A stretch of DNA of 43,534 nucleotides, taken from the NCBI GenBank assembly GCA_017553685.1, contig JAFZKH010000009.1:100945-144478 (forward strand), in the 5' to 3' direction. The position numbers and the translations under genes are program-made. The stretch is from Bacilli bacterium. Its GTDB lineage: Bacteria; Bacillota_I; Bacilli_A; RF39; UBA660. Shown here one piece after another: positions 11,290 through 42,994 of this stretch (within the stretch, counting starts at the first letter, position 1; the number at the start of each line of letters is the position of its first letter). The notes below the pieces were generated by a model. That model saw only the letters and a list, made by a program, of their open reading frames with translations, had not been told where the DNA came from and made no database searches.

Positions 11290-11322
11290 AAAAAAATATA
11301 GTTCATTGAACTATATTTTTAT
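11290..11322. terminator. Terminator after the VirD4-like gene
   Basis: A 14-bp stem AAAAATATAGTTCA / TGAACTATATTTTT around one central base has a T-run on the minus strand. The VirD4 stop codon (11319-11321) lies in the arm. This is the distal end of the secretion locus. Confidence 0.88.
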
Positions 11323-13556
11323 TCTTCATCAAAGAAATCATCAAAGAAATCATCATATTCTTCTTTTTCTTCTTTAACCTCTGTATTCTTAGATTCTTCA
11401 TTTTCTTTCATAGTAAAGTTTTCTAAGTCAACCATATTACTGTGAACAACTTCTGAAGTTTTAGGACCACCATCTTCAATATGAGTAGCTTCTTTAACTT
11501 CTAATTCTTCACTAGGTTTTTCAGGAGTTAAATCAAGAGGTTCTGGAGTAAATGGAGTTTCCGCTTTACTTTCAGATTCCTTCTTTGCTTTCTCTTCTGC
11601 TTCTTCCTTTTCTAATGCTGCTATTTGAGCATCTATCTTCTTAATAATATCATCTAATTCAGATTCAGATGGCATATTACCACCAGCAAATGGATTAGGA
11701 ACTGGACTAGGTTCAGGTCTTTGATTTAGGAATGGATTTTGATTCATTCCTCCACCCATAAATGGATTAGATCCTCCAAATGGATTACCACCTGGAACTC
11801 CTCCTCCAAAATCTAAATTAGGTCTATTTTCTTGTTTCTTCTTTTGAACATATTCTTTTAAATTGAATACTGCTATATCAGATAAATCTCTTTCTGGATA
11901 TATAACATTCTTACCAAAGTAATCTTCACCTTTACCAAATCCAAAGTCATTATTAAATCCTTGTCTTATAGTACCTTTATAAGGTGAACATCTTTGTTTA
12001 ATAAGTATAAATGTTCCAAAAGGTAATGTTTGAAGTTCTGTAACTGTTATTAAAGGTCTTGTTTCTTCTTTCTTATCTTTACCTACTCTAATAATCTTAT
12101 CACCACATAATTTAGAGATTTCTTCTAAGGCTTGTAATTCTCCAGTAAGTAAATAAATTAAGTTACCACAGTTACCTCTAATAGTTTCAGCTTCTTCTTT
12201 ACCATATGTTTTATTAATTTGTGCAAAGTTTTGAATGATAAATGTGAATCTAATTCTTCTAGAACGAGCAGCTGTAACCATTGTAGTAATATCTTTAAAT
12301 TTAGGCATGTTAGCAAACTCATCTACTATGAAGTTTGTTCTAACAGGAAGTGCTCCACCATGTTTATGAGCTACTGTAATTAATGATTCATAACATTGTT
12401 TAATAAAGATTGTAGCAAGTGAGTGATATGTTGTTTTTTCATCTTGTATTATTAAGAATACTGCTGTTGGTTTTTCACCAATTGATGACATATCAAAGTC
12501 ACTCTTAGAAAGCATTTCTGATAAGTTTTTAGTAACCGCTAATGTTTTAACTTTTTGTTGTAAAACTGTTAATACTCCAGCTTTAGTATCTTGTGCAGTA
12601 TTAACAACAGCAGCCATATTAACTGCTATAGGTGATGTAGGATCTTGCATATTAAAGTATTCTTGCATATATGTTTTAGGTCCTATTCTTTCTTCACCTT
12701 GATTAATCATTAAGTTAACTGAATTAATATTAATAGTATCTTTAGGAGCATCTTTGAATAATGCTAATCCAATACCTGTTAAATAGTCTGCAGCAGCATT
12801 TTGCCAGAATGGATCATCACCTTGTCCATCTACAACTATATTAGTAGCTAAGTCATTTAATAACTCGTTAGCTTTATCAAAATTTCCTTCTTGATGGTAT
12901 GAATATGGTAAATCATATGGATTCCAACAATTACCTTTTTGAGGTTCACGGAAATTAAGTATTATTATTTGATAACCTAATTCTCTAAGTTTACCAGAAT
13001 GGTGTTCATATATTTCACCTTTAGGGTCAGTAATAATCATTGATTCTCTACCCTTCATTAAGTGAACCATAGCAGGATCTACGAATCCAGATGTTTTACC
13101 TGAACCAGTAGCACCAATAACTAAAGTATGACTTTCACCATTATCTACATATGCTGCATCTTTTCCATATACTAGTGGAACACCTCCACCTTCAGATTTA
13201 GATACAGAATAAGGAACTTCTAAAACTCCTCTTTGAGCAATAATATCTTTATCTTTAAACCATCTAGAATATCCATTAGTTTTCTTTTCATCTGAATATC
13301 CAAAACCTTTTTCCATGTCAAAGAAATATGAAGAAGTAGTAGCAAATAAAGCTGCTATAATAGCTATCCAAACACCAAATGTAATTAATATATTATTAGG
13401 ATAAAAAGCTATTATGAAATTTATACCAGCCGGACTACCATATTCCATTATAGATTTAACATTTGAAATAACAATTGCAATTAAAAAAAGTAAAAAGAAA
13501 CATAACGTAGCAAATATAATAACGTCTTTCTTTTCAGCAACAAATTTTAGTCTCAT
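11319..13556 (-). CDS. VirD4/TraG-type T4SS coupling ATPase
   Basis: The 745-residue protein has two N-terminal membrane helices (about 12-31 and 52-75). A cytoplasmic coupling-protein ATPase follows: Walker A GATGSGKT at 148-155, MIITDPKGE at 173-181, and Walker B FIVDEFANMPKF ending at 420. Coupling proteins bring substrates to the secretion channel and dock on VirB4. The last 180 residues are disordered: a Gly/Pro/Asn stretch with four NPF motifs, a Glu/Lys-rich part, and an acidic aromatic end DDFFDDFFDEE. A hairpin separates it from the upstream gene, so it may be expressed separately; a TGATATAAT at 13582-13590 could serve as its -10. The Shine-Dalgarno is CGGAGATG. Confidence 0.9.
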   Translation of the reverse strand: MRLKFVAEKKDVIIFATLCFFLLFLIAIVISNVKSIMEYGSPAGINFIIAFYPNNILITFGVWIAIIAALFATTSSYFFDMEKGFGYSDEKKTNGYSRWFKDKDIIAQRGVLEVPYSVSKSEGGGVPLVYGKDAAYVDNGESHTLVIGATGSGKTSGFVDPAMVHLMKGRESMIITDPKGEIYEHHSGKLRELGYQIIILNFREPQKGNCWNPYDLPYSYHQEGNFDKANELLNDLATNIVVDGQGDDPFWQNAAADYLTGIGLALFKDAPKDTININSVNLMINQGEERIGPKTYMQEYFNMQDPTSPIAVNMAAVVNTAQDTKAGVLTVLQQKVKTLAVTKNLSEMLSKSDFDMSSIGEKPTAVFLIIQDEKTTYHSLATIFIKQCYESLITVAHKHGGALPVRTNFIVDEFANMPKFKDITTMVTAARSRRIRFTFIIQNFAQINKTYGKEEAETIRGNCGNLIYLLTGELQALEEISKLCGDKIIRVGKDKKEETRPLITVTELQTLPFGTFILIKQRCSPYKGTIRQGFNNDFGFGKGEDYFGKNVIYPERDLSDIAVFNLKEYVQKKKQENRPNLDFGGGVPGGNPFGGSNPFMGGGMNQNPFLNQRPEPSPVPNPFAGGNMPSESELDDIIKKIDAQIAALEKEEAEEKAKKESESKAETPFTPEPLDLTPEKPSEELEVKEATHIEDGGPKTSEVVHSNMVDLENFTMKENEESKNTEVKEEKEEYDDFFDDFFDEE

Positions 13557-13625: not shown

Positions 13626-16600
13626 CTAGTATGAAAATAAACTTGATTTAGAAGTTAAGAATCTCATAGAACTATTATTAGTTTTAGATATAGGTCCATA
13701 TTGTTTTTCATAGTCATATCTATATACAGCAGTATAAGATAATGTCTTATCAAATGCAGAGATTAATACTTCTGTACCATCAGCATCTCCAGAATCAGCA
13801 TTTTCTTTAGAAGGATCTGCCCATACTTGTTTTTCTTCACCTATATATATAATAGCAATCTTCTTAGAATCCTTTTCATAAACAAGGATATCTCCTTTTT
13901 TAATCTCAGCTTCTTTATATTCAGATTTAGTAAAATAATGCTCAGTTAGTACTTTTTCCATCTCATCAATAGTAAATACACTTTCTTGACCATCCATAAC
14001 ACCTGAATTAACAACACTATAATATATGAATGATGCATTATCTACATCTGGATTCATAGATCTCTTAGTTACATCATTAGTATTACCAATAGCATCATTA
14101 TTAGCTATTTCAATAGCTTTATTAGCTATAGCACCAGTCTTATTACCAACATACATTGAATCACATAATTTAACTCCACTTGCAGTTGATTGTGAAGATG
14201 ATGAACCACCTTTAAGATCAAATGTACCACTATGAATATTACCGTTATTAGTAAACATTAATACAGGGTTATTTGAAGATTCCCACTCAATACCCCAACC
14301 ACTTGTTGTTACATTTCCTGTTGGGTGACCTAATTCAACTTCAAACTCGATTACATCAGTAGCTCCAGAAAGAGGATGACCCCATCCAGTAGAATCAACA
14401 CCTTCACCTTTGGTATCCATAACAACCAATGGAGCTATACTACCATCTTTAAACTTAGCATTTAATACATCTCCTGGTAATCCAATATCAGGTACAACTG
14501 CGGATAAATACCTATCAACACCATCTACAGTGATATAAGCAATACCATTTTTAAATCTACTACCTTGAGAAACCCATACTTCATATGTTGCTCTTTGTCC
14601 CTGACCTTCTCCCCAAGTTCTTTCATCACTTGATTTGCATCCATAATACCAACCTTTTCCACCATAACATGTAAATGAATACTCATTAGCTTGTGTAAAG
14701 GTTTGAGGTATAGTAATAGTAGTAGCTCCAGGATAATCTCCTACATGAGCAGTACACTTAACAATCATATTAGTTGGATCTATTGCTGTTCCATCTAGTT
14801 TTCTAAATTCTAGATATAATGACGGAACACTTAATCCCTCAGATTCAGCAGCAGTACCAATAGTACCTACTTCTTGTCTATCAGTTACTGTATCTCCAGT
14901 TTTAAGTTTTACACTACTCTTACTTAATCCTTTATATATAATACTAAAGTCATATTGACTCTTTACAGCCGTTCCATCCATAGTATATTTATACTCTATT
15001 TCTATACATCCACCTGTACATTCCATAGTACTATCCGCAGAAGAAGCTTTAACAGTACCACCATCCATAACAGCATATACTTTATCGCCTTCTACGTTAC
15101 CAGTTGAATCTTTATTTAATTCAATACCATTATGTAATTTACCATCAGTAGTATATCCATATCCATTTTTATCAAGAAATTCAATACAATTAGAAGTATT
15201 AATATCAACTGGATCACTTAATGAACTAGCTAATTTTCTATCAATAGCTCCTATACATAATTGATTATAATCTTCAGAATCATCTTCATCTTGAATAGTA
15301 AATAATCTATCAAAATAATCTTTATATGCGAATATTTCATCTATAATATTATCTATTGATTCTTCTATAACTTTACCATCTTTATCATAACTTAAATATG
15401 GTTTAAAATCTGGATTATTTGGAATAAATTTTTCTTTTAAATATTTTCTATAGTTTTCTTCACTATATTTATATGAATAATATGTAATCGTAATTTCATC
15501 TAATACATTATTAGTAAATATATTTGAAGGCAGTTTTATACTTTGAACTGACATACATCCAAGGAATAAACAATTTATCAGAATTTTTGCATCTAATACA
15601 CTTTTTTGAGAAATAATAGGTATAGGAATACCCGTTAATAATGTTATAGCTGCACTTTTACCAACATCCGATAAAACATCTTTCATCATTTGTATAACAG
15701 CATCTTGATAATCTCCACCATAAGTAACTATCCATTCAGATAATGACATTTCATGCTGAGTATAACTACTTGCAGTTCCTAAAAATGTTGAATCAAACAT
15801 AGCATTTGCTAATAATTTTAATCTATATACTTTACCTATAGTGTACCAATAACCCGTTTCAGGATCATATGTACCTCCAGCTTCTTTTTCAACTTTTTCT
15901 ATTTCTGATTGTATTAATTGAGAAAAATTAGCCATATATGCATCTGTATCAGTGTCATCATCAAGACTACCAGCAGCCTCAATACCGAGAGATTGCATTC
16001 CGTAATTCTCATTTACACTTAAACTAGAATAATCTGTTTGATAGCCACTTTTCATCTCAGAATAAAATGTAGTAGCAAGTAATAGTGTGGAATCTAATTC
16101 TTCCCCATAAATACTACCAAGTCTATCTAGTTCTGCATAGAATGTTTCTTTTGAATCAGCAAAATTACCATTTGCATATAAGTTAGCAATCTTTTCAGCA
16201 GTATTAGCCACATTTAATGCAATTTTTTCAGCATTCATTAATGCATCTAACATAGGTGCAAATATCATATAAATACCTAAAGCCAAAAATATTATAGGTA
16301 ATAATAAACTAATAAGGCCCATTATTAAACCTGCAGCAGCAGATTTTAATGCACTCTCTCCTAGTTTATCTAATAACTTATCTGTGTTTTCTTTACCAAT
16401 TAATTTATCTAAAACTTTAACAGCTGTAGCACCTGCTTTAGAATATGCATTTGTATTTTCTGAAGCAGCTAATGCAGCTCTTATACCAGGAGCACCTGAT
16501 AATCCTTTAGGACCTTGTTTTAAGGCATCTTTTGTATTCTTAGCTATTTCAGCTTTATCAGCTGCAGGATTATCTTTTGCAGCATCCTTAGCTAAATCTT

Positions 16601-17540
16601 TAGCACCCTCTTTTGCTGCATCCTTTGCTGCATCTTTAGCAACATCTTTTGCTGCATCTTTTGCAGTGTCTTTAGCAGCATCCTTTGCTGCATCTTTTGC
16701 AGTATCTTTAGCAGCATCCTTTGCTGCATCTTTTGCATTATCACCTGCATTCTTAGCAGCATCCTTGCCATCAGGTTTTCCATCTTTTTTATCTTTGGTT
16801 TCATCTTTTTTATCAGATTTACCACCATTTTTATCTGAACCTTCTTCAGGTTTAGTTTGTTCATTAGATGAACCACTATCAGATGATGAACTCTTAGATT
16901 CTTCACCTGTAGATTTATCATCAGTAGCACTTTCTTTACTTGAAGTATCCTCAGATGATGTATCTGAACCACTATCTTTTGTATCACTAGTTTCAGTAGA
17001 ATCACTAGTATCACTAGAAGTATCTGAAGTAGGTTCTGAAACTGTTTCATTTGATGAGTCTTCAGTTGCTGATTCACTATCATCAGAACTACTTTCAGTA
17101 GGTTCACTTTCCTCACTTGTAGATTCAGAAGGCTCTGATGATTCAGTAGATTCTTCAGCAGATTCACTTGATGTTTCTTCACTTGGAGTATTATCCTCTA
17201 CAGGATTTTCATCTACTGAATTATCTCCATTATCTAATGATTCTTCTTCATTACCAGATTCATCATCAAGTATTTCCTCAGTATCATCATCATTAATAGG
17301 TTCTTCTTCACCTACTTCATCATCACCAAGTTCTTCAATACCTTCATCATCTGGTATTTCTTCTACATCATCATTTTGATTTATATTTTCTTCTTTTTTA
17401 TCACTACTAAAAGATGGTTCTGACACTGAACCATCATCTAAATCTAGGTCAGAAAGATCTAATTCTATCTCTCCTTCAATGACACCTGAAACAGGTATAC
17501 CATCTTTTCCTATATTCTCTTTTTTATCGTCCAATGCCAT
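13626..17540 (-). CDS. Large T4SS-associated membrane protein with degenerate M23-like and NlpC/P60-like domains
   Basis: The 1304-residue protein starts at the ATG at 17540, which follows AAAGGTGG. Residues about 25-250 are Asp/Glu/Ser/Thr-rich. Residues 260-325 are a repeat of A-A-K-D units. One hydrophobic segment lies near 402-432. Residues 795-930 resemble an M23 LytM domain, but the first site is HNGIE (Asp to Glu) and the HxH site is SLYLE, with both His lost. Residues 1000-1070 form a beta-rich module (ITVDGVDRYLSAVVPD). The C-terminus looks like NlpC/P60, with DNASF in place of DCSGF and IAIIYIG in place of HVGIYIG, so Cys and His are lost. By topology the acidic part is probably cytoplasmic and the rest outside. 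It takes the place of the VirB1-type hydrolase of Gram-positive systems. No Pfam search was possible; the domain calls are by eye. Confidence 0.7.
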   Translation of the reverse strand: MALDDKKENIGKDGIPVSGVIEGEIELDLSDLDLDDGSVSEPSFSSDKKEENINQNDDVEEIPDDEGIEELGDDEVGEEEPINDDDTEEILDDESGNEEESLDNGDNSVDENPVEDNTPSEETSSESAEESTESSEPSESTSEESEPTESSSDDSESATEDSSNETVSEPTSDTSSDTSDSTETSDTKDSGSDTSSEDTSSKESATDDKSTGEESKSSSSDSGSSNEQTKPEEGSDKNGGKSDKKDETKDKKDGKPDGKDAAKNAGDNAKDAAKDAAKDTAKDAAKDAAKDTAKDAAKDVAKDAAKDAAKEGAKDLAKDAAKDNPAADKAEIAKNTKDALKQGPKGLSGAPGIRAALAASENTNAYSKAGATAVKVLDKLIGKENTDKLLDKLGESALKSAAAGLIMGLISLLLPIIFLALGIYMIFAPMLDALMNAEKIALNVANTAEKIANLYANGNFADSKETFYAELDRLGSIYGEELDSTLLLATTFYSEMKSGYQTDYSSLSVNENYGMQSLGIEAAGSLDDDTDTDAYMANFSQLIQSEIEKVEKEAGGTYDPETGYWYTIGKVYRLKLLANAMFDSTFLGTASSYTQHEMSLSEWIVTYGGDYQDAVIQMMKDVLSDVGKSAAITLLTGIPIPIISQKSVLDAKILINCLFLGCMSVQSIKLPSNIFTNNVLDEITITYYSYKYSEENYRKYLKEKFIPNNPDFKPYLSYDKDGKVIEESIDNIIDEIFAYKDYFDRLFTIQDEDDSEDYNQLCIGAIDRKLASSLSDPVDINTSNCIEFLDKNGYGYTTDGKLHNGIELNKDSTGNVEGDKVYAVMDGGTVKASSADSTMECTGGCIEIEYKYTMDGTAVKSQYDFSIIYKGLSKSSVKLKTGDTVTDRQEVGTIGTAAESEGLSVPSLYLEFRKLDGTAIDPTNMIVKCTAHVGDYPGATTITIPQTFTQANEYSFTCYGGKGWYYGCKSSDERTWGEGQGQRATYEVWVSQGSRFKNGIAYITVDGVDRYLSAVVPDIGLPGDVLNAKFKDGSIAPLVVMDTKGEGVDSTGWGHPLSGATDVIEFEVELGHPTGNVTTSGWGIEWESSNNPVLMFTNNGNIHSGTFDLKGGSSSSQSTASGVKLCDSMYVGNKTGAIANKAIEIANNDAIGNTNDVTKRSMNPDVDNASFIYYSVVNSGVMDGQESVFTIDEMEKVLTEHYFTKSEYKEAEIKKGDILVYEKDSKKIAIIYIGEEKQVWADPSKENADSGDADGTEVLISAFDKTLSYTAVYRYDYEKQYGPISKTNNSSMRFLTSKSSLFSY
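16583..16760 (-). repeat. Tandem AAKD-coding minisatellite
   Basis: The minus strand encodes about 15 imperfect 4-residue units (AAKD, TAKD, VAKD, LAKD), that is, a 12-bp period with many units identical at DNA level on the motif GCAGCAAAAGAT. It sits between the acidic N-terminus and the membrane segment of the 1304-aa protein. The period makes it a candidate for length variation between strains. Confidence 0.85.
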
Positions 17541-17569
17541 CACCACCTTTCATTAATTATTAATTAAAA

Positions 17570-19360
17570 TTATAGACCGCCTTTTGTACCAAATGAATCA
17601 AGTTCTGCATCAGTAACAACTACACTAACTTGTAGTCTCTTACTACCACAGATAAATAATGCTTCACCTTGGTTATAACCTTTAATACTTTCAATCTCAT
17701 TTTCGTTGATATCAAGTAATTGAGCAAGGTCTTCAGCAGCTTGTTTTCTAAGTCCCATTATTAAATAATAAGACGAGTTATCAAATATTGCTTTACCTTG
17801 AGTAATTACATTAGGATCAGTAAAGTCACTTGGTTGTTGTGTAATTACTATAGTACCAGTATTATATTTTCTTGCTCTTCTTTGAACATTTGCTAAGAAG
17901 TCTGCTCCTAAAGTATTATTTTGACCAAGTAACATATGTGCTTCATCAACCATTAATACTGTATTAATATTTGGATCAAGACATAATCCCCAAGCATGTT
18001 TTAATATGTTAAAGAATAAAGCATTCTTAATATTTACTTCAGCATTCATAAGTTCTCTTATGTTGAAAACTATGAAGTTTGATTTTGGTTCAATGGTAGT
18101 ATGACCATTGAAGAAATATTCAAGTCCACCAGAAACTAGTGGTCTTATTTTCATTTCAAGTCTTTCCATTATACTTCTTTCAGCTGTAGCTTCACCATAA
18201 GAAAGTATTTTACCTCTAACAGTTTCATATACATCTGAGAATGTAGGAAAGTCTTCTTTTTTAAATGTAGTAAAATCTGTATTAATATTAACATTAAATC
18301 TTTGATATGTTTCCATAACAACTTCATTAAATAAGTTTAATACATCTTCTTCTATAGATGGATCATAGTATCTCATGAAAGCCTTTAATGTTTGAAGAGT
18401 ATTAGTTAGAATTGAATATCCAATACCTCTTCCAGTTTCATCATCTATTCCATCTGCAACAACTTCTAGTGGGTTAATCATACCATATTCGCCGCCTAAT
18501 CCTAGGTTAATGAAATCTCCACCAAATTGTCTAGTCATATCTTCTAATTCACCTTCAGGGTCAATAGCAACTATCTTATAATTATTTCTTATATGAGATC
18601 TAAGTAATAATTTAGCTGCAGTAGATTTACCTGAACCAGAAGATCCTAACATAATCATGTTAGCATTATTTCTATTATGTTCTTTTCTTTGTTGATATAA
18701 GAATTGGTTAAATAATACTACACCACCTGAGAAATCTACACCAAATAAACAAGATAATCCAGGATCTTTAATACTATCAAAGATAAATGGATACATTGCT
18801 GCAAGTGTAGGAGATGGTATTGGAGTACCAATTCTATCTTCAACATCTTGTTTTTCAAATATTGGTAGCATTGATTTAAATATTTTTTCTTGTTCAAATC
18901 TAAGTGGAACTGCTCTCATAAGCATTCCTTCCATTAGATTCTTAACTTGAACTTTTTTACTTTCAAGTTCTTCTTTAGTATCTGCTACTATCATTACATG
19001 TAATTGAAAATTAAATACTTTTGATTGGTCTCTAGTAATTTCAGAAATGAAATTATTAAGAGAATCATAGTCATTTCTTAATTTTTCTTGCATTGTTACA
19101 TCACGTTCTTTTTGATATCTTTCTTGAACATCAACTAATTGCTTATTAAGCATTTTAGCAAGAACTGAGAATGCAATAGGAATATGTTTAGCAACAATTC
19201 TAACACCAGATAAACCAGTAGATAGATTTGCTAAATATCCAGGTTGAATAGCACCAGGATAAGATACAACTGTAAGTATAGTTGAATACTTATCACTAAT
19301 GTAGAAATCACTAGTATTAAAAGTAATGCCCTTAGGAGCTAATTCTTTCTTTATACTCAT
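17570..19360 (-). CDS. VirB4-type T4SS ATPase, main part
   Basis: VirB4 is the conserved ATPase at the cytoplasmic base of type IV secretion systems. The 596-residue protein has Walker A GSSGSGKS at 239-246, AIDPEGELEDM shortly after, and Walker B VLMVDEAHMLLG from 468, followed by RRARKYNTGTIVITQQPSD, the usual sensor region. The first 200 residues are the C-terminal part of the usual VirB4 N-domain (DTKEELESKKVQVKNLMEG). The ATG overlaps the TGA of the 181-aa ORF (ATGA), and the two together give about 777 residues, the length of one typical VirB4. The gene precedes the large scaffold gene by about 30 bases. Confidence 0.92.
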   Translation of the reverse strand: MSIKKELAPKGITFNTSDFYISDKYSTILTVVSYPGAIQPGYLANLSTGLSGVRIVAKHIPIAFSVLAKMLNKQLVDVQERYQKERDVTMQEKLRNDYDSLNNFISEITRDQSKVFNFQLHVMIVADTKEELESKKVQVKNLMEGMLMRAVPLRFEQEKIFKSMLPIFEKQDVEDRIGTPIPSPTLAAMYPFIFDSIKDPGLSCLFGVDFSGGVVLFNQFLYQQRKEHNRNNANMIMLGSSGSGKSTAAKLLLRSHIRNNYKIVAIDPEGELEDMTRQFGGDFINLGLGGEYGMINPLEVVADGIDDETGRGIGYSILTNTLQTLKAFMRYYDPSIEEDVLNLFNEVVMETYQRFNVNINTDFTTFKKEDFPTFSDVYETVRGKILSYGEATAERSIMERLEMKIRPLVSGGLEYFFNGHTTIEPKSNFIVFNIRELMNAEVNIKNALFFNILKHAWGLCLDPNINTVLMVDEAHMLLGQNNTLGADFLANVQRRARKYNTGTIVITQQPSDFTDPNVITQGKAIFDNSSYYLIMGLRKQAAEDLAQLLDINENEIESIKGYNQGEALFICGSKRLQVSVVVTDAELDSFGTKGGL

Positions 19361-19902
19361 TCTGTAATCACACTCCCACTCTTAAATGTAACCCCACCGT
19401 TTAAGAAATTATCTAATATTGATCTTAAATCTTCATTAGAAGTTTGAGTAGCAATTAATCCAGTACCAGCCATGTTGTTAATTAATCCTCTAACTTTTTT
19501 AGTTAAAGCATCACTATTAGTATCTTTAACTAGAATGTAGTATTCTGTATCAACAACATTGTTCATTGAGAACATTTCTGCCTTTTCAATGTCATCAGCT
19601 AAAAGTTTTCTTCTAGCAGGACTTTGTTCATTAGACATTTGTAGTTCTAGTTGTGATACATATAGATTAATATCAACTGGTCTATCTGCTACAACTAACC
19701 AAAATTCATATTCAATTAAATTATAAAATTCTTTTAAAGAATTAATAATTCTATTTTGTTCTCCTTCAGTTAATATGAATATATTTCTAGGACTAATCTT
19801 AACTCCTGAAACAATACTCTTATCATCTAGAAAAATCATTCCATTATTAATTTCTTTAACTTGAATCCAGTTTTCAGTTAATGAACTATCCTTTGTATTC
19901 AT
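19357..19902 (-). CDS. Separate N-terminal segment of VirB4-like protein
   Basis: The 181-residue cytoplasmic protein has no membrane helix. Its layout (ISPRNIFILTEGEQNRIINS, then EFWLVVADRPVDINLYVSQL and TEYYILVKD) looks like the first beta-alpha part of a VirB4 N-domain. It lies directly upstream of the ATPase part with a 4-base ATGA overlap. There is no sign of decay: the end is a clean in-frame TGA with coupled restart. Either the family is natively split or a frameshift separated one ORF. It overlaps the PrgI-like gene upstream by 17 bases. The assignment rests on position and pattern. Confidence 0.65.
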   Translation of the reverse strand: MNTKDSSLTENWIQVKEINNGMIFLDDKSIVSGVKISPRNIFILTEGEQNRIINSLKEFYNLIEYEFWLVVADRPVDINLYVSQLELQMSNEQSPARRKLLADDIEKAEMFSMNNVVDTEYYILVKDTNSDALTKKVRGLINNMAGTGLIATQTSNEDLRSILDNFLNGGVTFKSGSVITE

Positions 19903-20191
19903 CTAGATAACACCATCCTTCCCACTTATAATTTCTTCTATGATAGAAGAAGTTTATTCCTTCCTTTATTACAGTCCTAATATTATGATAATTAGGAACA
20001 GGAACACATAATCCACAACATATTAGTCCAGGAGCTAAACACATTAGAGCTCCAAACATACCATGTGGTTGCACTATCAGTAAAGCAAGTAATGTTACTG
20101 CCACACCAGATATTGCAATAATCAAATCTATTGGTAAAAATATATTAAATATTAATTTACCATTATTTGTATTTGCAGGTATTATATACAT
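19886..20191 (-). CDS. PrgI-like T4SS membrane protein (VirB3 position)
   Basis: The 101-residue protein has two closely spaced membrane helices (about 17-38 and 43-63). Its basic C-terminus ends in YHRRNYKWEGWCYLDEYKG, which resembles the Y-K-W-x-G end of the PrgI family of Gram-positive conjugation systems. PrgI proteins are placed before VirB4 and are thought to take the VirB3 role next to the ATPase; this gene has exactly that position. AGGAGTG precedes the start. The end overlaps the next gene by 17 bases. Confidence 0.7.
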   Translation of the reverse strand: MYIIPANTNNGKLIFNIFLPIDLIIAISGVAVTLLALLIVQPHGMFGALMCLAPGLICCGLCVPVPNYHNIRTVIKEGINFFYHRRNYKWEGWCYLDEYKG

Positions 20192-20209: not shown

Positions 20210-22768
20210 TTATTCATTTTGATCCATTTTATTGTTAGTATCTTTAGTTGCTTTCTTAATATCACCTAAGGCATCATTAATATTTTCAATGCCAGTATTC
20301 ATCTTACCTAATGTCTCATTAGTAGTTCTTAAGTTACTATTAATTTTTTCACCACTAGTTCTAACTTGATTAGCAACATTCTTGCTACCAGTTTGAACAG
20401 AAGTATTTATTTCATCTAATTTTTGTTCTAATCTGCTTGTATCAATATCAGCTTGAACTGTTCCACCGTTTCCAACTTGTGTAGTACCAGTTTGTGAAGG
20501 CTCAGTAGTTCCATTTGCTTGATTTGATGAAGATTGTTGAGTTGATGAATTTTGTGATATTGATTCATTATTAGTAGGCGAATAAATTATAGCACTATTA
20601 ATATTTTGAATGTCTTCTCTTCTTTGTCTCTCCTCAAGTGCAGAAATAGACTTATCAATAGTATCCGATACCGCTTTAAATGCTGCTTTTACGCTTTCAT
20701 CGCCAATGTTTTCTTCAACAGTTTTAACTTTACTTTGTTGATCATTATAATCTTTTTCTGCTTTTTCCTTATCTTTTTTAAGAGTATCTACATCCATATC
20801 CAAAGCACCACTATTAGAAGCATTTTCATGTGCTTTAAGTGTCATATCTTTCATTTGACCAAACGTACTAGCATCTATTGTTCCAGTTCCTTTTATATCT
20901 CCTATTTCTTTAAGAACAGCATTCATGGAATCATCAGTACCTAGCTTACCAGCATGTAATAAATTTTGAGCTCTAGTTATAGCACCACGTTGTTCTTGAT
21001 TATCTGTGCTTTCAAGCATTTTTTTAAACATAGAATCTACATCATTAAATTTGTCTAATTTATCTTTAGCAGCACTATAATTACTTCTCTCAGAATTAAG
21101 TTTATTTAAGGCATCTCTTTGCATTTCGGTAAAGCCACCCATATTTTTGACAATATCATTATTCATTCCTTTTATATTACTTAAATTCTTTCCTCTAACA
21201 GTTTCACCATAATCAATCTTGCTCTTATCATCAGCTTTCAACTTTATTGCACTTCCAGAAGCATTTTCAATTTTAGCAGTAATTTTAGCTTTAGCTTTCT
21301 TCTCTTGTGCTTGCTTATCTTCATATCTCTGAGTTTTATAATTTTCATCAAGAGCCTTATTAACTGCACCTTTAGCATCTTTTCCTTGAGATTTATATGC
21401 AGCACCAACTACTTTTCCAACTTTAGTAGCAGAAGTTAAAGCACCTTTTGAAACACTTCCAACTTTTCCTGCAACATTTCTTACTTTGTTAAATTTTTCA
21501 TTGCTATTAAGTTTATCAGAGACACTATCCTTTAATCCTGATATTTTATGGCCTAAGCCCTTATCTCCTAATTTATTATCAAGTTTTCTAAATCCTCTTC
21601 CTACGCCTCTTCCTGCAGCAGCTAATAATTGTGGAGATGCTTTAGCAATACCACCTAAGCCTGCCCAGGCATTTTGAGCCATCTTACCAATACCAGCCAT
21701 TTCACCAAGTTTATCTTTGATACCACCCATTTTAATGTTAGCACCAAATAACTTACCAAATAAATCAGGTAATTCTTTAATCATTCTAAGTAAACCAATT
21801 ATTAAGAATACTTTAAACCAGAATGAAACACTATCGTTATTAAATATACTGTTAGGATCATTCATTAATTTGAATCCTAATACCATAAAACATAGTCCTG
21901 CAATTCTTATAAGAATACTTGTAAATTCTTGAACTGTCATCTTAGCCCATTTAGATAAATGATCTGTTCCTGCAGCTATATATGAAACAATTACTACTGG
22001 AGCAAGTATTTCAAGTAATCCAAGTTTTACTAACCTTAATCCTGCATCCATACATAAAATAATTATTTGATATAAAATAAATATTCCTACTGCTACTAAA
22101 GCAAGTCCATTAATTTGATATATTGGTTTTCCTTTTTCCCATACTTTATCAACATTAATACTATTTAAATTTTCATACTTAGGATCTCCTCCTAAGAAAG
22201 TAACAAATGGTTCATAATCAGCATTAGTATCTAATAATTTTTGTGCATAGTTACAATTAGTATCTCCATCACATAAAGCAGATTCTGTTAATGCTACTCC
22301 ATTTGGATCTATTGGTATTATGAAACTTGTAATAATTGTAGAAGTTAATTCTCCACCAGCACCTTCAACACCAGATTCAGAATCACTATCTACATAACCA
22401 AGCATTAATTTTTCTACTACTCCACCAACAATTATTTCAGCTTGTAAATAATACACAAAATTAAATATTGCTGGAACAGCTACTATTAAAAGTAAACCAA
22501 TAATAGTTCTCTTTAATACTCCTGTTACTCCTTTTTTAGCATCAGTTAATAAATCAGGATTAACAATTGCCTCTATTAACTTAACTGAAAAAGCAAATAA
22601 TATTACAACGCTTACTAAAATATAAATTCTATTACTTACTTCCTGAATTGTATCTGCTCTAAATAATCTAGTTGTAGCAAGTCCATAAAATAATGAATAT
22701 ATTCCACTAACAGCACTAAATATCCAGTTTGAAAGTCCTAAAAAAATCATATTTAAAAGTTTGCCCAT
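20210..22768 (-). CDS. VirB6/TrbL-like T4SS channel protein with long hydrophilic tail
   Basis: The 852-residue protein begins with a membrane part: hydrophobic segments near residues 5-30, 47-66, 85-110, 215-240, 250-275, 280-300 and 315-335, with an extracytoplasmic loop at about 115-210. This pattern and the block LRLVKLGLLEILAPVVIVS match VirB6/TrbL polytopic proteins of the inner-membrane channel. The last 500 residues are hydrophilic: first Gly/Ala/Lys-rich (AAGRGVGRGFRKLDNK), then helical and Lys/Asp-rich with likely coiled coils, then Ser/Gln/Asn-rich, and finally a helical end. It is the first gene of the main secretion operon, with its own promoter and AGGAGG. Confidence 0.75.
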   Translation of the reverse strand: MGKLLNMIFLGLSNWIFSAVSGIYSLFYGLATTRLFRADTIQEVSNRIYILVSVVILFAFSVKLIEAIVNPDLLTDAKKGVTGVLKRTIIGLLLIVAVPAIFNFVYYLQAEIIVGGVVEKLMLGYVDSDSESGVEGAGGELTSTIITSFIIPIDPNGVALTESALCDGDTNCNYAQKLLDTNADYEPFVTFLGGDPKYENLNSINVDKVWEKGKPIYQINGLALVAVGIFILYQIIILCMDAGLRLVKLGLLEILAPVVIVSYIAAGTDHLSKWAKMTVQEFTSILIRIAGLCFMVLGFKLMNDPNSIFNNDSVSFWFKVFLIIGLLRMIKELPDLFGKLFGANIKMGGIKDKLGEMAGIGKMAQNAWAGLGGIAKASPQLLAAAGRGVGRGFRKLDNKLGDKGLGHKISGLKDSVSDKLNSNEKFNKVRNVAGKVGSVSKGALTSATKVGKVVGAAYKSQGKDAKGAVNKALDENYKTQRYEDKQAQEKKAKAKITAKIENASGSAIKLKADDKSKIDYGETVRGKNLSNIKGMNNDIVKNMGGFTEMQRDALNKLNSERSNYSAAKDKLDKFNDVDSMFKKMLESTDNQEQRGAITRAQNLLHAGKLGTDDSMNAVLKEIGDIKGTGTIDASTFGQMKDMTLKAHENASNSGALDMDVDTLKKDKEKAEKDYNDQQSKVKTVEENIGDESVKAAFKAVSDTIDKSISALEERQRREDIQNINSAIIYSPTNNESISQNSSTQQSSSNQANGTTEPSQTGTTQVGNGGTVQADIDTSRLEQKLDEINTSVQTGSKNVANQVRTSGEKINSNLRTTNETLGKMNTGIENINDALGDIKKATKDTNNKMDQNE

Positions 22769-22852: not shown

Positions 22853-22886
22853 AAAAAAAACATAATGTTTTTATTATGTTTTTTTA
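22853..22886 (-). terminator. Terminator after the 224-aa cysteine-rich gene
   Basis: On the minus strand the stem AAACATAAT / ATTATGTTT with a 6-base loop is followed by a T-run. The stop codon of the 224-aa gene (22884-22886) lies at its edge. Confidence 0.75.
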
Positions 22887-23558
22887 TTCTTTTCCTGTAA
22901 CAACACATTTAAGTAAACTAGAATCTTTAATTGCACTATTTTTAGATAGTGTATCTACTAAAATACTAATAAGAATTGGTAATACCATTAAGATAAATAA
23001 TGCTATTATTCTTCTAGTTAATTTTGATCTAAATTTACTCATTTTCTTAGTATCTCCACTCATAATAGATGCTACTAAATCAAACGTTGCAAATAATATT
23101 GTTAATATAGGTGCCATTATAGTAGCAGTCTTATAAATAATATGAAATGGTTTTACATTACTACATGTTACATTTCCACTTTTCTTCTCACTAAAATCAT
23201 AGAAATCAGGTGTACCATTAAATCCACTATGAGTTATTGTTCTACAATAATCATTCTTACATTGTTTATATGTAACACTTAAATTAGAACTTTTACAACT
23301 TTCATAATCCCAATCTGTTTTCTCAAATCCACATCCAAGTGTTTTATTTGTCCAAACAGTAGTATTATACATTGGATGAACTCCTGGTAAAAATGTATAT
23401 CTATAGCAATAATATGATCCAGCATCACCTGTTTCACATGCTTTTATTGCTTCTTTTTTAGATGATTTATCTACTTTTTCAGAAAAATCCTCTGCTTTAA
23501 CAGTTAATGGAAAAAGTACTAATAGACATGTAATTATTAATAATATATACTTCTTCAT
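22884..23558 (-). CDS. Secreted/membrane cysteine-rich pilin-like protein
   Basis: The 224-residue protein starts with a signal peptide (MKKYILLIITCLLVLFPLTVKA). An extracytoplasmic domain with seven Cys follows (residues about 24-135), then two membrane helices joined by the basic loop SGDTKKMSKFRSKLTRR, then LLKC near the end. The loop and the following hydrophobic helix with its LP match those of the 125-aa and 418-aa neighbours, so the three share one hairpin module. A positive cytoplasmic loop between two helices, with both ends outside, is the VirB2/TrbC pilin topology. Start signal GGAGATG. It follows the 418-aa gene by 20 bases and shares its transcript. Confidence 0.65.
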   Translation of the reverse strand: MKKYILLIITCLLVLFPLTVKAEDFSEKVDKSSKKEAIKACETGDAGSYYCYRYTFLPGVHPMYNTTVWTNKTLGCGFEKTDWDYESCKSSNLSVTYKQCKNDYCRTITHSGFNGTPDFYDFSEKKSGNVTCSNVKPFHIIYKTATIMAPILTILFATFDLVASIMSGDTKKMSKFRSKLTRRIIALFILMVLPILISILVDTLSKNSAIKDSSLLKCVVTGKE

Positions 23559-23578
23559 TTAATTACATCTCCAGCAAA

Positions 23579-24835
23579 CTATTTATTCTTATCTTTTATT
23601 ATTAGAATAGCATTTTCTGCAAAATCATCATAGCATGCAGTTCTTGCAGCCTCTGTAGAAGCAGTATCAGTCTTTCCTACTATACCAGCATCATAACAAT
23701 TAATACTAGATTCCCAGTATGTATTCATGCATAATTCTTTACAATTAGTAATATTTTTTCCGTGGCATTGAGTAGTACAAGAATAATTAATGTATTTTTT
23801 CTCTTTACTTTGGTCATGGACAGAATTGACATATCCACTACCTTTATAATCATCATCAGTACGAGAATAAGTATATCTATTGTTCTTCCAACAAACTAAC
23901 CAGTCCGCATTAGACGAGAAATTGTTAACAATTGTAGAAACTAACCAAGGAACTAAGAATATTGCAGCTGCTGAAATAAACCTTTGAATAATTGGCTTTC
24001 TCATTTCAACAATTTTCTTTTCGTCTCCAGCAATCATTGACTTAAATAAATCTATTGATGCCCAAATAATTAATATTATTGGTGCAGTTATTTGAATAAT
24101 TTTAATTACTAAAGATGTGTAATATACTATTTCACCAAAGCCAAAACAGTTCTTAACAGTAATTTTTGAAATATAATCTAAGTCTTCAGTTATAGATCCT
24201 TTTGTACCATTTTTACCGGCACCATAAGAATAATTAACATCTTTATTAGAATTTTCTTTTAACTTGCAAAAGTTTTCAGAATCAATTGAAGTTTCACAAA
24301 AAACATTTCCTTTATATGTTGTTTCACATAATTTATTACCACAAGTAGTAAATGTGTCACAATTTACATTTGTAGCCATACAATTACTATATGTATTATT
24401 ATATATTTGTTGTTCAGGAGATCCTCCGTTTGTCCCAGCAAAACAGCCTGCTATTGCTTTACAAGCAGAATCCATTGCAGCTTCGTGTTTATTCTTAGTT
24501 TCATCACCTGTTGCTTGTCCAATAGTTTTACCCCATGTTTGTTTTTCCATAAGATTTAATAAGCCTGCTTTATAGCATTCATCACCCGCACCATTTTGCT
24601 TAACTTTTGTACAATAACAATCCTTATCTATTTGTTTACCAAGTCCAGTAGCAGTATATTTACAAGCCGCTTTATTTTCCTTATAAATTACCTCACAAAC
24701 ATAGTTTTTCATACTTTCAAAATATTGTGATGGAAACATTGAATCTTGATAAGTACAAGTATCAGCTTTAACACCATATCCAAACGATAAAATAACTACT
24801 AATAAAGCAATTAAAAATAATATTTTTTTCTTCAT
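23579..24835 (-). CDS. Large cysteine-rich protein with pilin-like two-helix module
   Basis: The ATG at 24835 follows GAAGGTG and opens a clear signal peptide (MKKKILFLIALLVVILSFGYGVKA); an upstream in-frame start would add eight unlikely residues. The mature part has 22 Cys, fourteen of them in the roughly 190-residue domain before the membrane part. The module IIQITAPIILIIWASIDL, SMIAGDEKKIVEMRKPIIQR and AIFLVPWLVS is nearly identical to the 125-aa protein, including the C-terminal NADW and C-W-K. A second Cys-rich stretch with six Cys follows. No enzyme motif is visible. A surface-exposed T4SS component or tip subunit is an inference. It has its own promoter. Confidence 0.65.
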   Translation of the reverse strand: MKKKILFLIALLVVILSFGYGVKADTCTYQDSMFPSQYFESMKNYVCEVIYKENKAACKYTATGLGKQIDKDCYCTKVKQNGAGDECYKAGLLNLMEKQTWGKTIGQATGDETKNKHEAAMDSACKAIAGCFAGTNGGSPEQQIYNNTYSNCMATNVNCDTFTTCGNKLCETTYKGNVFCETSIDSENFCKLKENSNKDVNYSYGAGKNGTKGSITEDLDYISKITVKNCFGFGEIVYYTSLVIKIIQITAPIILIIWASIDLFKSMIAGDEKKIVEMRKPIIQRFISAAAIFLVPWLVSTIVNNFSSNADWLVCWKNNRYTYSRTDDDYKGSGYVNSVHDQSKEKKYINYSCTTQCHGKNITNCKELCMNTYWESSINCYDAGIVGKTDTASTEAARTACYDDFAENAILIIKDKNK

Positions 24836-24860
24836 AAATACACCTTCTATCATACACATA

Positions 24861-24890
24861 ATTATATCATTTTATAAATAAAAAAATCAA
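24861..24890 (-). promoter_or_regulatory. Promoter of the cysteine-rich gene pair
   Basis: The minus strand has TTGATT (24885-24890), an 18-base spacer, and TATAAT (24861-24866) with TGA before it. The -35 lies inside the 3' arm of the preceding terminator. Confidence 0.6.
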
Positions 24891-24908
24891 CTTAATAAGT
24901 TGATTTTA
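24878..24908 (-). terminator. Terminator after the 125-aa pilin-like gene
   Basis: On the minus strand, AAAATCAACTTA and TAAGTTGATTTT form a strong stem followed by a T-run, so the pilin-like gene is monocistronic or mostly so. Confidence 0.85.
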
Positions 24909-24917
24909 TATTTTATA

Positions 24918-25295
24918 TTAGTTCCAAATATCATCAAAAGTATCGTCAAATGAAATTGGACCAGCTTTCCAAGCAGCTTTCCAACAAGTTTTCCAATCTG
25001 CATTTGCATCATCTGAAGCAAATCCGATTACTAAACTTACTAACCATGGTAATAAGAATACTAATACTGCAGAAAGAAGTCTTTGAATAAATGGTTTTCT
25101 AGCTGCAGAAATTTTCTTTTCATCTCCAGATATAATTGATCTTAATAAGTCAATTGATCCCCAAATAATTAATGCAATAGGAACAATGATTTGAATAACT
25201 TTAACGATGTAAACACCATAATAAACTAATGCAGATACACCAGCACAAGGACCAGTTCCTTCACCAATTCTGTCTAAGAAATTAATAAATTCCAT
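24918..25295 (-). CDS. VirB2/TrbC-like T4SS pilin candidate
   Basis: The 125-residue protein has no cleavable signal peptide. A short N-terminus with one Cys (GPCAG) leads into a first helix (about 28-55), the basic loop SGDEKKISAARKPFIQR, and a second helix ending LLPWLVSLVIGFAS; then come NADWKTCWK and an acidic aromatic tail (SFDDTFDDIWN). Two helices with a positive cytoplasmic loop is the VirB2/TrbC layout, also seen in the T4SS pilin families of Gram-positives. The Cys before helix 1 and after helix 2 are both outside and could pair. A consensus promoter and AAGGAGG suggest high expression, as expected for a major subunit. The terminator follows closely. Confidence 0.7.
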   Translation of the reverse strand: MEFINFLDRIGEGTGPCAGVSALVYYGVYIVKVIQIIVPIALIIWGSIDLLRSIISGDEKKISAARKPFIQRLLSAVLVFLLPWLVSLVIGFASDDANADWKTCWKAAWKAGPISFDDTFDDIWN

Positions 25296-25324: not shown

Positions 25325-25353
25325 ATAATACTATTTTATAAAATCTTTGTCAA
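25325..25353 (-). promoter_or_regulatory. Strong promoter of the pilin-like gene
   Basis: The minus strand has consensus TTGACA (25348-25353), 17 bases, and TATTAT (25325-25330). An AAGGAGG follows at the start codon. Confidence 0.82.
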
Positions 25354-42286: not shown

Positions 42287-42994
42287 CTACATCCTGTTAT
42301 TCTTTTTATTCTTAATATATACTACTACAATTACAATAATTATTGCTAGTACTGCTGCAACAATAAATAAATATTCATATCCAATACTAAATGCTTTATC
42401 ACCAAATTTAATAGCAGCACTATTTTTAGGTCTATTACCATCAAATTCAATCATTATATTCTTATATTCATCAGTATCTGCTTTAACATACCATGTATAT
42501 TTATTATTAACAACTTTATCAGCATTATGATCACTAACTTCAAATGGTACTTCTATTACTACTTCTATTTCATCATATACATATCTATTTGATGCTTTAG
42601 TATTTATTAAACCAAATTGATCAAATTCTATTCTTATATGATTCTTATCTTTACAAACTATTTTTTCTTCAAAAATATCAGTTTTAAAATTCTTTGAATA
42701 TTCTTCAATACTACTATAACTATTATTAACAGTAGCTGAAGTAGTACTATCAGCAGATATAATTGAGTAATTATCATCACCCATATAACTTGTTTTATAT
42801 ATCTTATATAAATAACTAACAGATTGACTTATATCAAGATTAGTTCTTGATTTCATTCTATTAGTATTTTCAGTAGCAGTTACCTTCTCGTTAACTGATA
42901 AATCTTTATTAATTTGTAACTCGTAGTTAACTTTACAACCAGAAATCATTATAACAAAAAATAATATTATTAATACTCTTTTTATATACTTCAT
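42287..42994 (-). CDS. Lipoprotein with C-terminal membrane helix (LppM-like)
   Basis: The 235-residue protein has a lipoprotein signal peptide with lipobox MISGC (Cys20). A beta-rich extracellular part follows (YELQINKDLSVNEKVTATEN, and IEVVIEVPFEVSDHNADKV), then a C-terminal helix near 208-230 with a basic cytoplasmic end KNKKNNRM. This layout resembles LppM-type proteins, named with low confidence. It starts the operon with cdaA-cdaR, only eight bases before cdaA, which suggests a link to c-di-AMP or wall sensing. The Shine-Dalgarno is GGAGA. Confidence 0.65.
   Translation of the reverse strand: MKYIKRVLIILFFVIMISGCKVNYELQINKDLSVNEKVTATENTNRMKSRTNLDISQSVSYLYKIYKTSYMGDDNYSIISADSTTSATVNNSYSSIEEYSKNFKTDIFEEKIVCKDKNHIRIEFDQFGLINTKASNRYVYDEIEVVIEVPFEVSDHNADKVVNNKYTWYVKADTDEYKNIMIEFDGNRPKNSAAIKFGDKAFSIGYEYLFIVAAVLAIIIVIVVVYIKNKKNNRM

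Follow-up and report, generated by a model that had tools for sequence, protein, structure and literature searches.

Candidate VirB2-like pilins with a conserved cysteine pair in a chromosomal type IV secretion locus of gut Bacilli

The stretch of DNA analysed here (the window; 43,534 nucleotides, positions 100,945 to 144,478 of the forward strand of contig JAFZKH010000009.1, assembly GCA_017553685.1), from a Bacilli bacterium of the lineage RF39; UBA660, contains three neighbouring genes, S, L and M, whose products share a short hairpin of two hydrophobic helices. The question raised by this locus is what kind of machine such hairpins belong to, and what that machine does. The reading that we favour, and regard as probable, is that S, L and M serve as VirB2-like pilins in a type IV secretion system (T4SS) that is chromosomal and vertically inherited, and which most likely serves antagonism (or feeding) and not conjugation. 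The three proteins and the cysteines that flank their hairpins are as follows.

24918 to 25295, minus strand: S, small pilin-like protein of 125 amino acids (aa), without signal peptide, two-helix hairpin, family-wide orthologues
25247 to 25245 and 24986 to 24984, minus strand: putative clasp cysteines of S, Cys17 and Cys104
23579 to 24835, minus strand: L, 418 aa, signal peptide, Cys-rich ectodomain, S-type hairpin and Cys-rich C-terminal extension
24148 to 24146 and 23893 to 23891, minus strand: putative clasp cysteines of L, Cys230 and Cys315
22884 to 23558, minus strand: M (H type), 224 aa, signal peptide, ectodomain and C-terminal hairpin
23165 to 23163 and 22907 to 22905, minus strand: putative clasp cysteines of M, Cys132 and Cys218

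An initial annotation had placed three open reading frames (ORFs) of 125, 418 and 224 aa at these coordinates, where they were indeed found; an upstream alternative ATG would extend L to 426 aa. Its cysteine counts also hold, with 22 in the 418-aa form (none of them in the signal peptide) and eight in mature M, as do the loops that it described, GDEKKI in S and L and GDTKKM in M, and the NADW...CWK elements common to S and L. The proposal that one pilin-type module underlies all three proteins was borne out by pairwise alignment of the hairpins, which gave Z scores of 22 (S against L), 8.6 (S against M) and 10.2 (L against M) relative to 500 shuffles preserving the hydrophobic/polar pattern. 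Since the real scores lay far above those of the pattern-keeping shuffles, none of which reached the real score in any pair (0/500), the similarity is not generic transmembrane similarity. AlphaFold2 modelled S as a simple hairpin (helices 21–56 and 59–93, pLDDT 76), while its model of the 418-aa L (pLDDT 42) was too poor to use, also for the fold of the ectodomain. Searches with S retrieved no match among plasmids, nor did its profile among PDB sequences. Identity with type IV (Tad/com) pilins was discarded, as no Pfam or NCBIfam match to such families appeared.

By its gene content the locus is a T4SS operon, with VirB4 and VirB6-, VirB3- and VirD4-like partners, in which S, L and M are the first genes and the machine genes follow directly downstream on the same strand.

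20210 to 22768, minus strand: VirB6/TrbL-like polytopic protein, 852 aa (NCBIfam MMCAP2_0566, 5.6e-15, and Mbov_0396, 4e-11, both below cut-off)
19886 to 20191, minus strand: VirB3/PrgI-like membrane protein, 101 aa, a name that relies on position, size and conservation (neither Pfam nor NCBIfam gave a significant match)
19357 to 19902, minus strand: VirB4 N-terminal part, 181 aa (VirB4_plasma, 1.2e-15 to profile positions 99–276), overlapping the next ORF by ATGA
17570 to 19360, minus strand: VirB4 ATPase part, 596 aa (VirB4_plasma, 1.1e-106, below cut-off; P-loop_TraG above cut-off)
13626 to 17546, minus strand: VirB1-like wall hydrolase, 1306 aa, with low-complexity N part, transmembrane (TM) segment and M23 plus NlpC/CHAP-like C part
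11319 to 13556, minus strand: VirD4 coupling ATPase, 745 aa (NCBIfam conju_CD1115, 306 bits against a cut-off of 250)

VirB4 and VirB6 match the models Mbov_0397 and Mbov_0396, from integrative and conjugative elements (ICEs) of mycoplasmas, strongly yet below their cut-offs, and the VirB1-like protein reaches 28.0 bits for Peptidase_M23 against a cut-off of 28.7. The latter protein also contains, before its TM segment, a long region that is acidic/Ser-rich and has Ala-Lys-Asp repeats, and long antisense ORFs are found there. Across the family the typical gene order is S-[X]-H-B6-B3-B4n-B4c, an H-type gene adjoining virB6 family-wide; the block from VirB6 through VirB3 to both VirB4 parts is uninterrupted in 50 of 59 loci, and 58 of the 59 have a split VirB4.

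The initial annotation was right in calling the hairpins pilin-type, although it did not name the T4SS operon around them, and the type appears to be that of T4SS, VirB2-like pilins. Several features point in this direction, namely the two-helix hairpin, the basic loop and the position of the genes beside virB6, virB3 and virB4. Against the Pfam family T4SS_pilin (PF18895, gathering cut-off 26.6 bits) S scored 18.9 bits and M 17.0, with no match for L; relatives carrying the same hairpin passed the cut-off, with 39.1 (L032), 32.7 (L131) and 33.9 bits (L187), and 13 of 38 S types matched the family at E ≤ 1e-3. The Mbov_0395 pilin-like ICE family (NF045849, cut-off 40 bits) was not reached, the best score being 30.2 bits (L187, 2.7e-7) and that of the own genome 20.4. 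Membership among the VirB2-like T4SS pilins of Pfam T4SS_pilin appears to be the best reading of the hairpin. A common origin with the N-terminal hairpin of VirB6, into which an iterated hairpin profile drifted, was considered and is not claimed, because pairwise similarity was near chance and the VirB6 hairpins formed a separate clade without the flanking cysteines.

In the hairpin tree the small proteins grouped, with good support, in an S clade, the remaining lineages being mostly of H type, in which, as in M, a signal peptide and an ectodomain precede a hairpin at the C-terminus. The L hairpin was placed within the S clade, beside S proteins of its own genus, and L would therefore be a local S duplicate that gained ectodomains; comparable events of S duplication and ectodomain acquisition recur in other species (L040, L041, L042). 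The S and H types are thus paralogues of ancient origin that occur throughout the family, and of the three window genes only L is a recent S copy. Consequently, of the expansion of a single module envisaged initially, the shared module, the small probable major subunit and the large decorated forms stand, but not a single recent expansion.

Expression signals around S are also in line with its being probably the major subunit.

25325 to 25353, minus strand: promoter-like TTGACA-17-TATTAT upstream of S (11 of 12 positions, consensus match only)
24880 to 24904, minus strand: between S and L, terminator-like stem (ATCAACTT/AAGTTGAT) with a T run after it

An AAGGAGG ribosome site precedes the ATG of S. 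A stricter terminator scan, which requires three G-C pairs, listed none between S and L; a terminator-like stem with a T run lies 3' of S in 42 of 58 cases and 3' of H in 10 of 45, the rate at random sites being about 6%, so that S appears to be a family-wide, separately terminated gene. Given this near-consensus promoter, the ribosome site and the terminator-like stem, S could be produced in larger amounts than the machine.

All three window proteins contain one cysteine before helix 1 and one after helix 2. Conservation of cysteine positions in homologues had been put forward initially as a point on which the proposal could fail, and the flanking pair proved near-invariant among 113 aligned hairpins (105 and 111, respectively). 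In a larger set of 166, both cysteines were present in 163, neither in two and a single one in only one, a fragment truncated at a contig end, so that no full-length hairpin has just one; chance coincidence of both losses would be about 7e-5 (two losses per position, 165 full-length hairpins). The pair is absent from VirB6 hairpins and from the mycoplasma-ICE pilin-like homologues. Because both cysteines are conserved and are lost together, the pattern indicates an extracellular intramolecular disulfide clasp, and disulfides in the hairpin proteins are plausible. The Cys-rich ectodomains had also been pointed out in the initial annotation, whose view that their cysteines face outside stands, while their number is not conserved, ranging from 0 to 24 in the large hairpin proteins of relatives. 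Judged by conservation, the constant feature is therefore the pair of putative clasp cysteines that flanks the hairpin, and the cysteine richness of the ectodomains is a lineage-specific decoration. An even cysteine number as proof of full pairing had to be dropped, with 99 members even and 67 odd.

Regarding the redox context, the search for a thiol oxidoreductase recommended initially came out negative, neither DsbA/BdbD (PF13462) nor VKOR being found in this genome; VKOR was found in none of 38 genomes, and PF13462 was above cut-off in two of 40. Elsewhere in the same genome (L122:2778-3986, G000:C7) a secreted CPHC thioredoxin/glutaredoxin-like domain is fused to a polytopic membrane domain, which we take to resemble CcdA/DsbD (it has no Pfam match), and might be a redox partner of surface cysteines. 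This protein has a match in 49 of 59 family genomes, being common and not universal. It was rejected as a dedicated oxidase, since it also occurs in both genomes that lack hairpins and has no specific link to them.

Our survey of relatives comprised 59 family genomes, each at least 90% complete and all of them draft metagenome-assembled genomes, with genomes of about 1 Mb in the family. Relatives that bear a name, Candidatus Onthousia among them, are uncultured Bacilli of the rumen and of the rabbit and chicken gut. The window VirB4 had a match in 51 of the 59, nearly all a single ortholog with 61–100% identity. The hairpin profile (A1) found members in 57, and the two hairpin-less genomes (G064 and G070) are also without VirB4; within the class Bacilli, the same search was positive in 18 of 19 family members against 0 of 130 others. 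Within the genus the locus occupies a fixed chromosomal site beside trmL. The relaxase PF03432, the sole relaxase family searched (other MOB families were not), was absent from the own genome (G000) and not above cut-off in 41 of the 51 VirB4-bearing genomes. It exceeded the cut-off in 10 of 59, six of which bear an additional divergent VirB4; the divergent VirB4s are single frames of about 770–870 aa, unlike the split VirB4 of the window. No relaxase or integrase was seen in the window. From the fixed site, the near-universal single ortholog and the usual lack of a PF03432 relaxase, the T4SS looks like a chromosomal system passed on vertically, and unlike a conjugative element.

The large decorated forms noticed initially do exist, but they are a minor share of the picture, since elsewhere in these genomes the module bears many wall-active enzymes. 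In the same genome two near-copies of M (65% and 61% identity) carry C-terminal enzyme extensions at the rplQ locus, one a C39 peptidase (575 aa, Peptidase_C39_2, 32.1 against 24 bits) and the other an NlpC/CHAP-like protein (938 aa), which has no Pfam match and was assigned by motifs and weak PDB profile matches. These near-copies stand in tandem and are followed by a TM-anchored 257-aa protein (L033:7865-12500, G000:C9); the sister genome G002 retains a single near-copy at rplQ, ending before the enzyme. A third such orphan, encoded between hpf and secA, combines a hairpin above the T4SS_pilin cut-off with a C39-like domain (21.6 against 24 bits), and this hairpin-enzyme occupies the same position in 11 of 11 genus members in which the region was read. 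Also in this genome, an S-type hairpin is joined to a C-terminal domain beginning KPVIYIYPEEE, with no significant Pfam match (L031:9455-10342, G000:C6). Family-wide, fusions above Pfam cut-off include M23, NlpC/P60, GDSL, CHAP, C39_2, VanY, S9, S11, Amidase_3 and endolysin-like domains, T4SS_pilin and Amidase_3 both passing in one protein (L187). The genome G087, with a single T4SS, encodes 16 hairpin proteins, among which about ten enzyme types are represented. Four tandem hairpin-enzyme genes in that genome (L173:3255-8936, G087:C1) have near-alike carriers and differing C-domains (SGNH-like, NlpC plus C39, and a CHAP-like pair), forming an apparent cassette array. The orphan hairpins retain the Pro, the loop and both cysteines.

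Exchange of the enzyme on a kept carrier could be followed at the hpf-secA site of three sister species. There hpf is 99–100% identical and the carrier parts 70–77%, while the C-domains share 76% in one pair and only 20–23% where an NlpC/CHAP-like domain replaced the C39-like one; the gene just downstream of the swap falls from 68% to 44–48%, the next two genes staying at 68–79%. A conserved N-terminal carrier with an exchangeable C-terminal enzyme, as in polymorphic toxins, was thus found in the orphan hairpin proteins and not in the three window proteins. A single-anchor protein, mostly of 200–260 aa, lies 3' of 20 of 27 hairpin-enzyme genes, usually after a gap of 6–16 nt, against a background of 33% of the ORFs of 150–300 aa in the same loci. 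Such partners (tm244/257) were rejected as proven immunity proteins, since over all pairs their identity does not track enzyme class. Lipoproteins of the lp214 family are encoded in T4SS loci and also immediately behind hairpin-enzymes (7/50 against 30/1114, p = 7e-4), a link between the orphans and the machine. A member of this family also stands alone in a conserved housekeeping region of the window (42287 to 42994).

Taken together, these data allow a mechanism to be proposed. Charge and signal peptides suggest that the hairpin would span the membrane, its basic loop facing the cell interior and its two ends the exterior, where a disulfide between the two co-conserved cysteines would clasp the ends. 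By analogy with VirB2, VirB4, together with the VirB6 platform, may pull hairpins from the membrane into a pilus-like fibre, with S as its abundant shaft subunit, M, encoded beside virB6, as an ancient minor, initiating or tip subunit, and L as a species-group-specific S copy exposing a fast-evolving Cys-rich domain. As the hairpin C-termini would face outward, domains fused to them would be displayed outside, and the anchored partners might be immunity proteins. The machine could then act in contact-dependent antagonism against, or feeding on, neighbouring bacteria. It is the loading of the carrier with wall enzymes and the anchored partners elsewhere in these genomes that make antagonism or feeding most likely, rather than conjugation, and the predicted, mostly envelope-directed enzyme set fits the former better. 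A bolder version, in which a conjugation machine has become a weapon, or a means of predation, carried on a pilus, the clasped pilin being a polymorphic carrier with swappable wall enzymes and anchored immunity partners, we advance only tentatively; if true, the toxin itself would be a pilin.

Several observations weigh against the antagonistic T4SS. None of the three window proteins passes any curated pilin cut-off, and a Foldseek search with the S model against PDB gave no significant match, although this carries little weight for a two-helix hairpin. Hairpins occur without a VirB4 match in six genomes (draft assemblies), the relaxase argument draws on PF03432 only, and odd cysteine counts in 67 of 166 members imply that not every cysteine is paired. 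Neither PF13462 nor VKOR supplied a dedicated oxidase, and the CPHC protein is not specifically linked. The C-domain swap is one clean triplet, and over 55 species pairs partner identity did not clearly track enzyme class (30% against 28%). Pilus, disulfide, secretion and killing are predictions from sequence.

Other explanations must be weighed against the same data. The hairpin proteins, with or without enzymes, might be anchored accessories which remodel the cell's own thick wall, at the T4SS or elsewhere, involving neither pilus nor target cell. The VirB1 proteins of Gram-positive bacteria are membrane-anchored wall hydrolases (PMC12857230), which makes this alternative a serious one, and both the mostly envelope-directed enzyme types and the housekeeping-like persistence of the hpf-secA hairpin-enzyme in all 11 genus members would suit it. 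We nevertheless judge it unlikely, since the locus already encodes its own M23/CHAP VirB1-like protein, since G087 has so many hairpin proteins and enzyme types for one T4SS, since carriers are kept while C-domains are exchanged, and since enzymes other than classical wall hydrolases (S9-type, GH99-like, GDSL) are also carried.

That the hairpins form a mating pilus, for conjugation or DNA uptake by an immobilised ICE or a Ced-like DNA importer, appears more doubtful still. DNA transfer is the rule among Gram-positive T4SSs (PMC12857230), a VirD4 is present and the machine is closest to Mbov_0395/0396/0397, but the missing PF03432 relaxase, in the own genome as in most VirB4-bearing ones, the fixed site beside trmL, the one ortholog per genome and the lack of an adjoining integrase in the window all speak against it. 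It seems very improbable that the hairpin is a mere two-helix membrane anchor, functionally unlinked to the T4SS outside the operon. Such anchors are common and the orphan copies lie far from the T4SS locus; yet the profile matches none of the 130 other Bacilli genomes, the orphans keep the Pro, the loop and both cysteines, the same two genomes lack VirB4 and hairpins, and lp214 recurs in both settings. An antagonistic or feeding T4SS with VirB2-like pilins remains, in our view, the probable account.

Some VirB2/TrbC pilins are covalently closed by cyclisation, and the clasp, which may stabilise a pilin hairpin by means of a disulfide, would compare functionally with it. According to a 2025 review, VirB2 pilins have not been found in Gram-positive T4SSs except in Patescibacteria, and whether Gram-positive T4SSs became dedicated effector translocators is a long-standing question (PMC12857230). 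With the family described here, VirB2-like pilins would extend to a second Gram-positive lineage. They seem to be fixed throughout this family of gut Bacilli with genomes of about 1 Mb, and its locus supplies candidate effectors and partner genes which make that question directly testable; no published description of this family's system was found in a search without preprints and most subscription papers. Overall, the data suggest a previously undescribed Gram-positive way to display or deliver enzymes against neighbours.

Among known systems, the closest likeness in setting is to Patescibacteria, for which the accessible part of one study (PMC12102498) describes relaxase-less chromosomal T4SSs with VirB2-like pilins. 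Both systems are monoderm, chromosomal and mostly relaxase-less, and in both several VirB2-like hairpins, divergent in sequence, are encoded close to virB4, whereas, relative to that part of the source, ours is distinguished by its Bacilli family, the split VirB4, the invariant clasp cysteines and the fusions to ectodomains and wall enzymes. Mycoplasma ICEs (Mbov_0395 pilin-like, Mbov_0396 VirB6, Mbov_0397 VirB4) give the best NCBIfam matches for VirB4 and are among the best for VirB6, but their pilin-like copies have no flanking Cys pair and the scores here stay below curated cut-offs. With the Gram-negative VirB2/TrbC/TraA pilins the hairpins share two helices, a short basic loop and a gene beside the VirB6/VirB3/VirB4 block, differing in the Cys clasp, the outward fusions and the lack of a detectable PDB sequence match. 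Finally, as in polymorphic toxins (LXG of type VII and RHS of type VI secretion systems, and contact-dependent inhibition, CDI; PMC3482391, PMC5555719), a conserved carrier precedes an exchangeable C-terminal enzyme and a linked partner gene, while the carrier here would be a T4SS pilin-like hairpin, with toxicity and immunity putative.

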